Shown here one piece after another: positions 44,085 through 49,312 of a stretch of 64,000 nt of DNA. This DNA is from Nitrososphaerota archaeon (GTDB lineage Archaea > Thermoproteota > Nitrososphaeria > Nitrososphaerales > Nitrosopumilaceae). Location: the NCBI GenBank assembly GCA_028867595.1, contig JAGWGB010000006.1, positions 1 through 64,000 of the forward strand, in the 5' to 3' direction. The translations under genes were made by a program, and so were the position numbers. Position 1 is the stretch's first letter, and each line of letters starts with the position of its first letter. The notes under the pieces were generated by a model. The model was not told the DNA's origin. It saw nothing but the letters and a program-made list of their open reading frames with translations, and searched no databases.

Positions 44085-45839
44085 TTAGAAAAGATCTCGC
44101 ACTATGGCCTGAATACTGAGTATGTCTTCTTCTTCCTGTTTTATTTTCTTCTCAATGACGCGTATCATAGAATCGAGCCATACGTGATGTGAGAAGAAGT
44201 TGTGGTATGTGTTTGCCGCTGTCATTTCATCATCCACTACAGTATCCTCTAGAAACTTTGTCGCTACAGTATCTGTCAGCTTTAAAATTCTCTGGTTTAG
44301 CTTGACGCTCTTGAAGACAGGTTCTAGTTTTGCAATATCTTCCTTGAAATCTCCTTTGGAAAGGAGGATTTTTTCATGAAGAATTTTGAAATAGACTGCA
44401 ACAAAAAATAATGTTGCATATCTTTTTGTTTTATGGCCTCCCTTTTTTCCATAGTTCAAAGCCTTTTTTGCATATTCCTTTACAAGATATGGATACAACA
44501 ATAATCTGTAATCGTCTCTTAGCTTTTCATCAAACACTTCGTCATACTTGCTTCCTCTTGGCAAAAACTGCGCAGGAGAACTATACGACTCGGTTGGTCT
44601 CTGTTCGATTCCAGCTACAAAGGCCTGTATGGCGTCTTTTCCAACGATGACCTTTTTGTGATTATCCGGAAGATATTTGCTGTATATGGGATCGCCTACA
44701 AACTCTGACTGCTGTGATTTGGTCTTGCTATCAAACGATCCTGCCTGTATTTCGTAAAAATACCCAAGGCTTTCCATCTGAGACTTGATTGATTTATGAA
44801 AATCCATCAAGGAGACGAGGTCCTTTCCTCTTACTGCATTCTGCGAGTTTCTGTACTTTGTTATGTTGTTCTGATCCATCTCATCAGCTGCCTTGATTAT
44901 AGTAACCGTGATACTTCCTTCCAAGTTGTGGGTGCGTTTTGCATGGTCCAGTACTGAATTTGATGTCTGTGCACCGTTAACTATTTGGGGTGCATGCAAA
45001 AGTATTGAGTTGTCCTCATGCTCTTCAAAATCATTTACAACTATGGTTATGCCGTTATTGTAGTAGAAGAACTTGTTAGGAGATTCCTGCAAAGTCTCGC
45101 GCAGACCCTTGTTTACAGTTGTTTTAAACTGCATCCACTGCCTTATGTTTGACTCAAAAACATAATCTCTATTTTTTGTAACAAAGTTTGTCAGTTCTCT
45201 TAGCTTTAGGATTCCAAGCAAGGTATTTTGATATCGCAACTTGCTCTCAAGTCTAATTGCAGCTTTTTTGCCCACTGCGGGTTTTTTGATCCTATCCCAT
45301 AATTTTTGAATTATTGCATCAATGTCATATATCTCGACAGATTCATAGATCTCCTCGTCAATTTTTTGATCCGTAACGTAAATGCATTCTATCTTTAGGT
45401 GCCTTTCTTGTATCTGGGTTACAAGATGAGCAATTTCAGGTCGCATCTTTGCAATGTCTTTGTCAAGTAGACTCTGTACGTCATGTCTGAACTTGGCAAT
45501 TGCTTCCATGGAATGAGATGTCCCGTATTTTGACTGGAAAAGGTAGATCTTGTCTTCTGAAAAGTCAACTGGTAGATACGCATCTATGCCTAGATCATTT
45601 GGACCATCGATAATTGCATCTGTCGCATCGTCTTCTGTAGCTTCGAAAACTCTTGTTAGTACCCATTGAAGAAAATTATGTCCTTTTTCAACCTCATTTT
45701 GTGCACTTTCGGCATATTCTTTCACACTATCACGTACGTTCTGAACAAATCCTTCTAACGGCTGACCATTGGATGATTGCTGTAAAGGCGGTCTTGCACC
45801 TGGTATGTACTCTAACAATCCGTTACTTCTATCTGCCAA
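44085..45839 (-). CDS. AIPR-family (abortive infection phage resistance) protein
   Basis: The TTG-started 584-residue protein shows the AIPR core: FFYYNNGITIVVNDFEEH, HAPQIVNGAQTSNSVLDH and ITKYRNSQNAVRGKDLVSLM. An N-terminal restriction-endonuclease-like region is suggested by GIDAYLPVDFSEDKIYLFQSKYG (about residues 85-107), with D...QxK-type residues. The family is linked to phage abortive infection and to restriction loci; its action on nucleic acid is inference. It lies between the TnpB element and tRNA-Cys, pointing to an acquired island. Confidence 0.85.
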   Translation of the reverse strand: MADRSNGLLEYIPGARPPLQQSSNGQPLEGFVQNVRDSVKEYAESAQNEVEKGHNFLQWVLTRVFEATEDDATDAIIDGPNDLGIDAYLPVDFSEDKIYLFQSKYGTSHSMEAIAKFRHDVQSLLDKDIAKMRPEIAHLVTQIQERHLKIECIYVTDQKIDEEIYESVEIYDIDAIIQKLWDRIKKPAVGKKAAIRLESKLRYQNTLLGILKLRELTNFVTKNRDYVFESNIRQWMQFKTTVNKGLRETLQESPNKFFYYNNGITIVVNDFEEHEDNSILLHAPQIVNGAQTSNSVLDHAKRTHNLEGSITVTIIKAADEMDQNNITKYRNSQNAVRGKDLVSLMDFHKSIKSQMESLGYFYEIQAGSFDSKTKSQQSEFVGDPIYSKYLPDNHKKVIVGKDAIQAFVAGIEQRPTESYSSPAQFLPRGSKYDEVFDEKLRDDYRLLLYPYLVKEYAKKALNYGKKGGHKTKRYATLFFVAVYFKILHEKILLSKGDFKEDIAKLEPVFKSVKLNQRILKLTDTVATKFLEDTVVDDEMTAANTYHNFFSHHVWLDSMIRVIEKKIKQEEEDILSIQAIVRDLF

Positions 45840-46006: not shown

Positions 46007-46228
46007 TCAGAATTTTGAAAACTGTTTTGCAGCTAGTCTAACATCTTCTGCTTTGATTGTTTTCCTACCAGCATGTGTTGACATTTCTACTGCATTTTTG
46101 GCAATGGACACGCCAACCTCTTCCAATATTCTTCTTAGTTCATTTGCTGACTCATCACTTACTCTGTCAGCTCCGGCCTTTTTTAGGATCCTATACATTA
46201 CAGAAAGACCAAATTCAGATGTTGTCAT
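46007..46228 (-). CDS. Archaeal histone
   Basis: The 73-residue protein has the histone fold without tails: VMYRILKKAGADRVSDES, ANELRRILEEVGVSIAKNAVEMSTHAGRKTIKAEDVRLAAKQF. It packages DNA as dimers and longer stacks. The HAGRKTIKAEDV segment is the conserved loop 2/helix 3. Confidence 0.96.
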   Translation of the reverse strand: MTTSEFGLSVMYRILKKAGADRVSDESANELRRILEEVGVSIAKNAVEMSTHAGRKTIKAEDVRLAAKQFSKF

Positions 46229-46323: not shown

Positions 46324-47079
46324 ATGAGTTGGCTAACTGATGCTCATATTCATCTGTCAGACGATGAATTCAAACCTGAACTGCCATTCATTTTGACAGC
46401 AATGGACAAGATGAAAATGCGGGCATGCTGTGTCTCCATGGACTATGCAAGCTCAAACACAACGCTTGCCATAGGCAAAAAAAGCAATCTTGTTTTGCCT
46501 TTTCTTGGAATACATCCAGAAAAGGCTAATGATGATCTGGAACCCGTAGAACGCCTAATTGTAGACAATTCAAACCAAATCTCGGGTATAGGAGAAATTG
46601 GTCTTGACAAGACATATGTCTCAGACGAGGATGGTTTCAAACGCCAAGTTCATGTCTTTGAAAAAATGCTATCTCTGGCAGAAAAGCTTGGAAAACCAAT
46701 ATCGATTCATTCAAGAAAAACATTAGACGAGATATTTTCTATTTTGCCGTCATATCGCCTTGGTGGTACATTGCTACACTGGTTTGCAGGAAATAAAAAA
46801 CAACTACAAAAAGCCATGGATATGGGATGTTTTGTTTCATATGGACCTGCCATGGTTTATTCTCAAGACAAGCAGATTCTTCTTTTGCAAACTCGACTTG
46901 ACAAGGTTTTGCTTGAGACTGATGGGCCAGTCAGGTTTTCGAAATGTTTTGGATACAAGACTGCACAAATAACTTTTCTTCCAAGCGTTCTCTTTTGTGC
47001 GTCAAACATTCTTAGAATGCAATATGACGAAACGCTTGGAATAGTGGAAAAAAACATGAATTCCTATCTTGGCATATAG
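46324..47079 (+). CDS. TatD-family metal-dependent hydrolase
   Basis: This putative deoxyribonuclease/hydrolase has a TIM-barrel with TDAHIHLSD (two metal histidines), GEIGLDKTY, ISIHSRKT and LLETDGP, which are the family metal sites. The 251-residue length is typical. Its 3' end overlaps nothing once S17e is started at 47111. Confidence 0.88.
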   Translation: MSWLTDAHIHLSDDEFKPELPFILTAMDKMKMRACCVSMDYASSNTTLAIGKKSNLVLPFLGIHPEKANDDLEPVERLIVDNSNQISGIGEIGLDKTYVSDEDGFKRQVHVFEKMLSLAEKLGKPISIHSRKTLDEIFSILPSYRLGGTLLHWFAGNKKQLQKAMDMGCFVSYGPAMVYSQDKQILLLQTRLDKVLLETDGPVRFSKCFGYKTAQITFLPSVLFCASNILRMQYDETLGIVEKNMNSYLGI

Positions 47080-47110
47080 GTATAAAATACCCCTTGTGCC
47101 AATCGGTAAC

Positions 47111-47368
47111 GTGAATAGAGTCAGACGAATTTCCACGGAACTGATGACTGCTTATAAAGGAAAATTTGGCGTCGACTTTAAACAAAATAAAAAAATCCTA
47201 GATGAAGTTGCAATAGTGAGATCAAAGGGATTGAAAAATGAGATTGCAGGTTATATCGCAACCCATTTGAAAAGAGAACTGGAAGAACAAAAAGAAAAAG
47301 AATCACTAGCACCACAAGAAGAAGCCATCGTCGAGACTGAAGAGATGGAAGAACAGCTAGTCAGCTAA
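47111..47368 (+). CDS. rps17e: Ribosomal protein eS17-like
   Basis: The protein matches archaeal S17e through NRVRRISTELMTAYKGKFGV, DFKQNKKILDEVAIVRSKGLKNEIAGYI. A TATA-like GGTATAAAATACC (47080-47092) is about 25 nt before the GTG at 47111, which supports a leaderless 85-residue protein. A GTG at 47096 or a TTG at 47069 would give longer forms. The C-terminus is Glu/Lys-rich. Confidence 0.85.
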   Translation: MNRVRRISTELMTAYKGKFGVDFKQNKKILDEVAIVRSKGLKNEIAGYIATHLKRELEEQKEKESLAPQEEAIVETEEMEEQLVS

Positions 47369-47426: not shown

Positions 47427-48206
47427 GTGATAACAATCAAACTTCTTGGCGGCGCTAAAAGGTCTTTTTTGTCTGATAAACTCTCAGTCGAAAAAAATCT
47501 CATGTCTGTATCTGAGCTTCTTGCCTTTCTCCAGAACTTGGTTGAAAAAAACATGCCTCCATTTGACACAAAAAATATTCTTGTAGCAATAAACGGCGTG
47601 GATTCGTCTGCACTACAGGGAAATGATACATCTGTCAAGGACGGGGATACTGTTAGCATAATCCCAATAGTGCATGGAGGAAGCAAGACAACCGTTAACT
47701 TTAGAGTATCAAATTGTAACATAGTGCTAGTCAGGCTGGGAAAACTACTACCTGATCCAACAAAATTACTAGAATCACTGAGAGCCAAGTTTCCAGATGT
47801 CATTATTCAGGGAATTAGATCGAAATATGCCCTAAGTTTGCAACATGTCAGACGAGTTATCGAGATTTCCTTAGTTGCCAGCAAAGCTGGAACATTGCTT
47901 TCCAATAAAATTGAGACTGACATGCTTATGCGGTTTGCCGCAAGCAGGCAGATAAGTGAAGCAATCAGTAAAGTTGGTTTACAGAAAGGTGACGACTCTA
48001 TCTTAATTTTAATTGGAAAAATGCCTACAATCAACAAGCTTGTGACCGACCTTGGCCATGTGGTAAAACCCATGACACCATTTCCTAAAAATGATAATTT
48101 CTTAAAAAAAGAATTCAAAATAACAAAGAAAGAACTTGATTGTATAATGTCAAGAGAACCACTTGAGGATCTCTTAGTTGAGAGAGCCGCAGTTTTATTC
48201 CATTGA
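47427..48206 (+). CDS. Fusion: MoaD/SAMP-like ubiquitin fold + Cgi121 (KEOPS) domain
   Basis: The GTG-started 259-residue protein has an N-terminal beta-grasp domain (residues 1-85) with the MoaD/ThiS pattern: ITIKLLGGAKRSF, ILVAINGVDSS, VKDGDTVSIIPIVHGG. Its GlyGly (84-85) is where free SAMP/MoaD proteins end. The rest (about 95-245) matches Cgi121, a tRNA-binding and Bud32-activating KEOPS subunit: HVRRVIEISLVASKAGTLLSNKIETDMLMRFAASRQISEAISKVGL. KEOPS makes t6A37 in tRNA. The gene is beside sua5, the other t6A enzyme. The 3' end overlaps the THUMP gene by 12 nt. Confidence 0.78.
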   Translation: MITIKLLGGAKRSFLSDKLSVEKNLMSVSELLAFLQNLVEKNMPPFDTKNILVAINGVDSSALQGNDTSVKDGDTVSIIPIVHGGSKTTVNFRVSNCNIVLVRLGKLLPDPTKLLESLRAKFPDVIIQGIRSKYALSLQHVRRVIEISLVASKAGTLLSNKIETDMLMRFAASRQISEAISKVGLQKGDDSILILIGKMPTINKLVTDLGHVVKPMTPFPKNDNFLKKEFKITKKELDCIMSREPLEDLLVERAAVLFH

Positions 48207-48716
48207 ATCTCGTTTTACTTTCAAGGTGCTTATTATGTCGGATTCTTTTAGGATGGAAACCCCAACTATGTCACCTAAAATCTCAACTATGATATTCCAA
48301 TCATATTTTTCCAAAGACACCTTGTTTTTCACAACTCCTGCAATGGAATCGATGAGTTCTTTTGTGGATAGTTCAGAGCCTCGCTTTTCAATCGTAATTC
48401 TGTAAGAATCATCTGGTTGCATGCTGTGCATGTTATTTTGTACAGCTTTTACAATGTTATCTGGCGTAGCTTTTGCTGATTCCTGAATTGGTATGAATCT
48501 GTGACAATATCTGACACTCCAAGGCTCATCAAGAATTTTTGTTCTGATTTCATTGACAACCTGAAAAGGATCTAATGATGTGTGGACAGTAACTATACCT
48601 GAAAATCTACTGTGCTCCATTCTAGATTCATCATCCCCTAACATGGTAAGAATTTTTGAAATCTCATCAGATGCTTCCTCTTCCATGTGGCGACTGCATG
48701 TTACAATTAGATTCAA
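48195..48716 (-). CDS. THUMP-domain RNA-binding protein (Tan1-like)
   Basis: The 173-residue protein is a THUMP domain with its NFLD-like N-terminal part (MNLIVTCSRHMEEEASDEIS, SGIVTVHTSLDPFQVVNEI, DDSYRITIEKRGSELSTKEL). THUMP domains present tRNA to modifying enzymes; Tan1/THUMPD1 is the adaptor for ac4C12. No catalytic domain is attached. It overlaps sua5 by 4 nt. Confidence 0.85.
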   Translation of the reverse strand: MNLIVTCSRHMEEEASDEISKILTMLGDDESRMEHSRFSGIVTVHTSLDPFQVVNEIRTKILDEPWSVRYCHRFIPIQESAKATPDNIVKAVQNNMHSMQPDDSYRITIEKRGSELSTKELIDSIAGVVKNKVSLEKYDWNIIVEILGDIVGVSILKESDIISTLKVKRDSME

Positions 48717-49312
48717 ACTAGTGCAAGTAACTCCTTTTCGCTAATTCTTCCTTTACGCACTATGTGAAACCTATCTCCTGTGACTTGGACAATTGTAGAT
48801 TCCACAGAGTTTTGAATGGTTCCGCCGTCTAGCAGTATGTCATATCCAGTTAGTTTCTCTAATATCTCTGCAGGGTCTGAAGCAGGAGGTTGGCCCGATG
48901 GGTTTGCACTTGTTCCAACTAGCAACTTGCATTCTTTGAGAAGTTCTAGTGTACACGGATGATTAGGCACACGTACTGCTATTTTTTTATCTAGACCAAG
49001 AGATCTTGCTATCTTTTCTTCTTTTACATCAAGAATCAATGTTAGCGGACCTGGCCAAAATTTGGATGCAAACTTTCTTGATAACTCGTCAAAAACTGCA
49101 ATCTTTGATATCTCAAAAATCGAGGACCCAAGAACTGGAAGCTGCTTTGATTCTTGTCGCCCTTTGATTTTGTAAATTTTCTTGACTGCCTCTTCATTAA
49201 ATGGATCGCACCCAATGCCGTATACCGTATCTGTGGGAAAAACCACAATGTTGCCTTTCTTGACTGCCTTTGATGCAGTAGTAATTCCAGCATGGTCACA
49301 TGATACGATCAT
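48713..49312 (-). CDS. Threonylcarbamoyl-AMP synthase (Sua5/YrdC/TsaC)
   Basis: This enzyme makes threonylcarbamoyl-AMP from threonine, bicarbonate and ATP for t6A37 formation. The 199-residue protein has VFPTDTVYGIGCDPFNEEAV, KIKGRQESKQLP and LLVGTSANPSGQPPASDP, the YrdC active-site blocks. It lacks the Sua5 C-terminal domain. With the Cgi121 fusion and THUMP genes next to it, the locus looks devoted to tRNA modification. Confidence 0.94.
   Translation of the reverse strand: MIVSCDHAGITTASKAVKKGNIVVFPTDTVYGIGCDPFNEEAVKKIYKIKGRQESKQLPVLGSSIFEISKIAVFDELSRKFASKFWPGPLTLILDVKEEKIARSLGLDKKIAVRVPNHPCTLELLKECKLLVGTSANPSGQPPASDPAEILEKLTGYDILLDGGTIQNSVESTIVQVTGDRFHIVRKGRISEKELLALV

Follow-up and report, generated by a model that had tools for sequence, protein, structure and literature searches.

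The window analysed here, a stretch of 64,000 nucleotides from the genome of an archaeon of the Nitrosopumilaceae, holds at 47427-48206 (+) a single open frame of 259 amino acids, with a GTG start at 47427 and its stop at 48206, in which an N-terminal ubiquitin-like (Ubl) domain of the β-grasp fold is joined to the KEOPS subunit Cgi121 (Table 1). The gene is approached from downstream by two convergent genes, one of which encodes Sua5/TsaC, the enzyme that partners KEOPS in making t6A. Elsewhere in the window a protein of 584 residues, whose AIPR domain (PF10592) places it in a family linked to abortive infection, is encoded at 44085-45839 (-) and adjoined by an archaeal histone gene at 46007-46228.

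Table 1. Parts of the fused gene and its neighbours in the window.
Feature	Position	Strand	Remarks
TatD, ribosomal S17e			Upstream of fusion
Ribosomal protein S17e	47069..47368	+	PF00833, E 1.5e-16; same strand, upstream of fusion; true start uncertain
Ubl β-grasp domain (ThiS/MoaD/Urm1 type)	47427..47681	+	Residues 1-85; PF02597, PF09138; fold matches Urm1 and SAMP1
Gly84-Gly85, proposed cleavage site	47676..47681	+	Preceded by Ile-Pro-x-x-His; unchanged across 101 distinct fused proteins; lowest pLDDT at 83-85
Variable linker	47682..47756	+	About residues 86-110; 27.5 changes per column vs 19.8 on average
KEOPS Cgi121	47757..48206	+	About residues 111-259 and stop; NF011465 and PF08617 above cut-off; fold matches
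THUMP-domain protein	48195..48716	-	PF02926, E 3e-7; convergent neighbour
Sua5/TsaC, threonylcarbamoyl-AMP synthase	48713..49312	-	PF01300, E 1e-56; TIGR00057 above cut-off; downstream, convergent

The C-terminal part is a genuine Cgi121: it scores 112-114 bits against the NCBIfam profile for KEOPS Cgi121, NF011465 (cut-off 40, E 5e-33 to 2e-32), matches the CGI-121 family PF08617 with E 3e-10, and in a comparison of the modelled structure with the PDB finds the Cgi121 proteins of yeast, human, plant and M. jannaschii. The last of these contacts the CCA tail of tRNA via Gln71, Ile72 and Lys56 (PMC7718258); the Gln-Ile pair of this contact is invariant in the fused Cgi121 as Q175-I176, and the Lys56 column holds Asn in the fusion, with a Lys one residue later. 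No second Cgi121 was found in the genome, the fusion thus being the sole copy, and Bud32 and Pcc1 are encoded elsewhere in the same genome. A second Pcc1-like gene, a frame of 82 amino acids at locus L224 on contig C104, is possibly the KEOPS subunit Pcc2.

In the N-terminal part, residues 12-85 match ThiS PF02597 (E 4e-12, 46.8 bits, cut-off 22.5), the domain likewise matches Urm1 PF09138 (E 2e-6, 28.6 bits, cut-off 21.8), and the corresponding part of the model finds Urm1 and SAMP1 in the PDB. None of the NCBIfam equivalogs for SAMP1, MoaD, ThiS and Urm1-like proteins reaches its cut-off (best 30 bits vs 70), and the domain is therefore not filed as SAMP1, MoaD or ThiS proper. It ends in DGDTVSIIPIVHGG (residues 72-85; continued to residue 87, DGDTVSIIPIVHGGSK), and as encoded it lacks the free C-terminal glycine; the Ubls of other families are encoded with this glycine free. 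Modelled in full, the chain shows two folded parts, Ubl and Cgi121, at a mean pLDDT of 88.9, and falls below 50 in one stretch only, residues 83-85. The sequence-only reading had placed a MoaD-like Ubl and Cgi121 in one frame, with an internal GG at residues 84-85 and with sua5 and a THUMP gene as neighbours, and the profile searches uphold it on each of these points. It had also regarded a separate Cgi121 gene, or a fusion not conserved among relatives, as damaging to its proposal; neither was encountered, since the fusion is conserved across the family.

The architecture itself was already known. Makarova and Koonin described in 2010 a Ubl-Cgi121 fusion that lies beside S17e and was common to every thaumarchaeal genome available at the time, proposed that it might serve KEOPS regulation by sampylation or provide a link to RNA and protein turnover, and noted a Ubl-E1 fusion in Thaumarchaeota as well (PMC2948915). 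The juxtaposition is hence not new, and our searches found no later literature on this fusion. The protein described here agrees with the published one in architecture, archaeal group and the S17e neighbour; what is new is the evolutionary history of the fusion, in that the present analysis adds relatives with separate genes, splits at the GG and a link to JAMM1 and precursor processing, which the account in PMC2948915 does not contain.

In the Nitrosopumilaceae with Nitrosotalea (family f1) the two parts are fused throughout, apart from the splits described below. The other families of the order mostly encode the Ubl in a small gene of its own, which immediately precedes cgi121 and either overlaps it or lies within about 100 bases of it (in genome G215 the two are far apart), and these separate Ubls mostly end exactly in HGG-stop or else carry 1-5 further residues. 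Outside the order, a few families likewise have a Ubl just upstream of Cgi121, at 3 of 30 loci. The genus Nitrososphaera (g19, family f3) holds both fused and separate members; the linkers of the fused ones differ (HGGADYFF, HGGTDYY, HGGSSKKKW, HGGMEDNR, HGGSRALG and HGGSARRA), and separate ones read HGG-TAG in G452 and HGG-TGA in G463. A further arrangement is found at locus L134 (G404, family f73), where the Ubl is fused via FHGGTEEK to a phosphoribosyltransferase (PF00156) and Cgi121 is the next gene, such that another passenger stands behind an internal GG.

On a tree of the Cgi121 parts the fused and separate states change 7 times, at least four of these changes being required by well-supported branches, and a single origin of the fusion is accordingly rejected. 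Family f4 is probably misplaced in this tree by long branches, and we therefore count a minimum of two gains, with two or three losses. Comparison of the loci shows the fusion to have been gained once in Nitrosopumilaceae and at least one time in Nitrososphaera, via loss of the Ubl stop. It has been undone at least twice and probably three times, always 0-7 codons past the GG. Two splits inside fused clades leave both halves intact, namely HGGA-TGA-TTG in G061 and the HGG-TGA of Nitrososphaera L144/G463. A tentative third is that of G378, where one extra A soon after HGG gives a break seven residues further, again with intact halves; the change concerns a single base within a run of A, and a sequencing error could account for it. 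Three breaks would fall within 21 of 777 bases by uniform chance with a probability of about 2e-5, which is only a rough figure because selection would act against breaks that fall inside a domain.

Selection on the GG itself was assessed on a tree that comprises 101 distinct fused proteins, without the GG-less L109, and has a total length of 27.6. Not one change is counted on it at H83, G84 or G85 vs a mean of 19.8 changes per column, the residue directly after the GG shows 33 changes and ten different letters, and the linker behind it is the most variable part of the fused proteins. Furthermore, all four Gly codons are present at both G84 and G85, so that it is at the protein level that the GG is preserved. 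An invariant HGG would be superfluous in a permanent linker. The only fused member found without the GG is the divergent Ubl-Cgi121 protein of L109 (G408, family f77; genome 82% complete), in which the GG is replaced and the motif reads HCSA, and in this lineage the intact fusion may be in use.

A search with PF02597 finds two ThiS-family domains in the window genome, the Ubl-Cgi121 fusion and the N-terminus of an E1 (ThiF E 2e-75), and no free-standing ThiS-family Ubl, although a very divergent one could be missed. The other fused genomes searched give the same picture, and free forms are found in Nitrosopumilaceae only where one of the two fusions is split. The E1, a protein of 438 residues at L068:4620-5936 (contig C65), reads ...PAVAGG-SELSS at its joint, and the GG of this attached Ubl is also conserved; both ThiS-family Ubls of the genome are hence N-terminal fusions with a GG at the joint. 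At locus L242 (G576, about 1534-1812) an E1-type Ubl stands alone and ends in ...PAVAGG-stop, no E1 being found near it in about 28 kb of the same contig, which makes it a second Ubl fusion undone exactly after the GG.

The window genome has kept a tRNA thiolase of the NcsA/TtuA type, and the fused Ubl is a candidate for the sulfur carrier in thiolation. It should be mentioned that the NcsA of methanogens can use inorganic sulfide (PMC10067955), so that thiolation need not require a Ubl. In the relative G068 no E1 was found in a nearly whole assembly (loci L248-L331 and L334), and this genome retains NcsA, both JAB proteases and the Ubl-Cgi121 fusion with its GG. Either the GG has some role beyond this E1, or the loss of the E1 is recent or a gap.

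Two JAB proteases are encoded in the window genome; the nearest relative of one is P. furiosus JAMM1 and that of the other AfJAMM, and the listed JAB protease sequences carry HSHPDSAAYPSSTD and HSHPTGIAKPSVTD. In the JAMM1-type protein the motif is intact and the nearest relative in the PDB is P. furiosus JAMM1. Precedents for such enzymes acting at a GG joint exist, since HvJAMM1 cuts SAMP1-MoaE precisely after the Gly both in vitro and in vivo, this fusion being inactive until cut (PMC4443979), DRJAMM cuts a natural MoaD-MoaE (PMC8832034) and CsJAMM cuts the SAMP precursors of Caldiarchaeum (PMC6043591). We compared 71 genomes for which both the Ubl end and the protease class were known, the class being assigned by sequence at twenty loci and otherwise by clearly separated profile scores. 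Residues after the GG are present in 0 of 11 genomes without JAMM1 vs 13 of 23 with it when Nitrosopumilaceae are left out of the latter (Fisher p 0.001); as the genomes are related, the figure to trust is the modest one obtained after collapsing to families, 6 and 3 with JAMM1 vs 0 and 5 without (p 0.03). JAMM1 as a strict marker of the fusion was rejected, since several JAMM1 lineages keep separate genes and the link is one-way. At locus L138 (G479) a JAMM1-type protease gene adjoins separate Ubl and cgi121 genes divergently.

On this comparative basis it seems probable that the gene makes a Ubl-Cgi121 precursor which is cut after the GG, most likely by JAMM1. The notion draws on the adjacent Ubl genes ending in HGG-stop elsewhere, on the invariant GG beside a varying linker and the splits at the GG, on the lack of another free ThiS-family Ubl in a genome that keeps the E1 and the thiolase, on the presence of JAMM1 and its link to residues after the GG, on a pLDDT below 50 only at residues 83-85, and on the cleaved Ubl fusions known as precedents. 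Comparison shows that in an ancestral operon cgi121 was immediately preceded by a free Ubl gene whose end read His-Gly-Gly-stop, and that loss of this stop fused the two. A protease of the JAMM/MPN+ type, most likely the JAMM1-type protein of the genome, would then cut after Gly85; the freed Ubl, with its GG exposed, would be activated by the E1 as a sulfur carrier in tRNA thiolation and/or as a protein modifier, and the freed Cgi121 would, as is expected from its family, join Bud32-Kae1-Pcc1 for t6A synthesis. The fusion would thereby give equal amounts of both products, much like the ubiquitin-ribosomal protein and Ubl-MoaE fusions, and uncut chains might speculatively act as a reservoir or regulator. 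Against the precursor it must be said that the Ubl domain borne by the E1 could serve instead, that the GG persists in the E1-less G068 and that L109 has lost its GG. In addition, nearly all Nitrosopumilaceae have retained the fusion, which may therefore have a role beyond the joint production of two proteins.

The main alternative, which we hold to be unlikely, is that two forms exist, JAMM1 cutting part of the pool and the rest remaining fused in KEOPS as a regulatory form, so that cleavage switches KEOPS or reports its assembly. This would explain both the invariance of the GG and the long retention of the fusion, and the SAMP1-MoaE fusion is indeed inactive until cut (PMC4443979); a functional uncut form is however a postulate, and the lineages with separate genes manage without one.

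Of the two mechanisms offered by the sequence-only reading, comparison favours the precursor cleaved after the GG, and the other, in which the chain is never cut and its Ubl acts as a fixed cap or docking module regulating KEOPS or linking it to other machinery, is much less likely. Such a cap would agree with the retention of the fusion in nearly all Nitrosopumilaceae and with two well folded domains close together in sequence, but it leaves unexplained why the GG is invariant beside a freely varying linker, why splits fall at the GG and separate genes elsewhere end in HGG, and why another free-standing ThiS-family Ubl is absent. It is improbable, more so than the cap, that the E1 or another enzyme uses the GG within the intact chain or that the GG is conserved for structural reasons. 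The persistence of the GG in G068, where no E1 was detected, is in agreement with use within an intact chain, but the chemistry of E1 acts on a free C-terminal carboxylate, and a fixed structural role is argued against by the model being least certain exactly at residues 83-85. An assembly or annotation artefact, or a chance frame, is virtually excluded and was rejected, since the same frame without stops is found in more than 100 genomes, single-contig ones included, this conservation across the family rules out chance or an assembly slip, and nothing was found in its favour.

Among known systems, the putative precursor resembles the Ubl-MoaE and MoaD-MoaE fusions cut by JAMM enzymes (HvJAMM1 on a built fusion, and the natural Deinococcus DR2607 by DRJAMM), with which it shares an N-terminal Ubl, a GG at the junction, a partner behind it and a JAMM protease in the genome; the partner there is however a molybdopterin synthase and not a KEOPS subunit, and cleavage there is experimental whereas here it is deduced. 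In the ubiquitin and SAMP precursors of the related archaeon Caldiarchaeum a JAMM-family enzyme likewise removes the residues after the GG (PMC6043591), but these are short tails, whereas here a whole protein, Cgi121, follows. The eukaryotic ubiquitin-ribosomal protein precursors are like the fusion in carrying a modifier of the ubiquitin fold N-terminal to a translation-linked protein with a GG at the joint. They are cut by deubiquitinases of the cysteine protease type and not by JAMM enzymes, and their passengers are ribosomal.

The Ubl-Cgi121 fusion has stood unexplained since 2010. If it is cut after the GG, this would explain how globally abundant archaea without a free ThiS-family Ubl obtain a working one, and would provide a natural and evolutionarily repeated case in which a Ubl precursor is attached to a protein related to translation, comparable to eukaryotic ubiquitin. 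On balance we lean towards the view that most ammonia-oxidising archaea make their Ubl modifier or sulfur carrier only as a fusion to a KEOPS subunit from which JAMM1 would release it, an arrangement that would have arisen more than once and would be the archaeal counterpart of the ubiquitin-ribosomal protein fusions, tying the supply of the modifier to the t6A machine.
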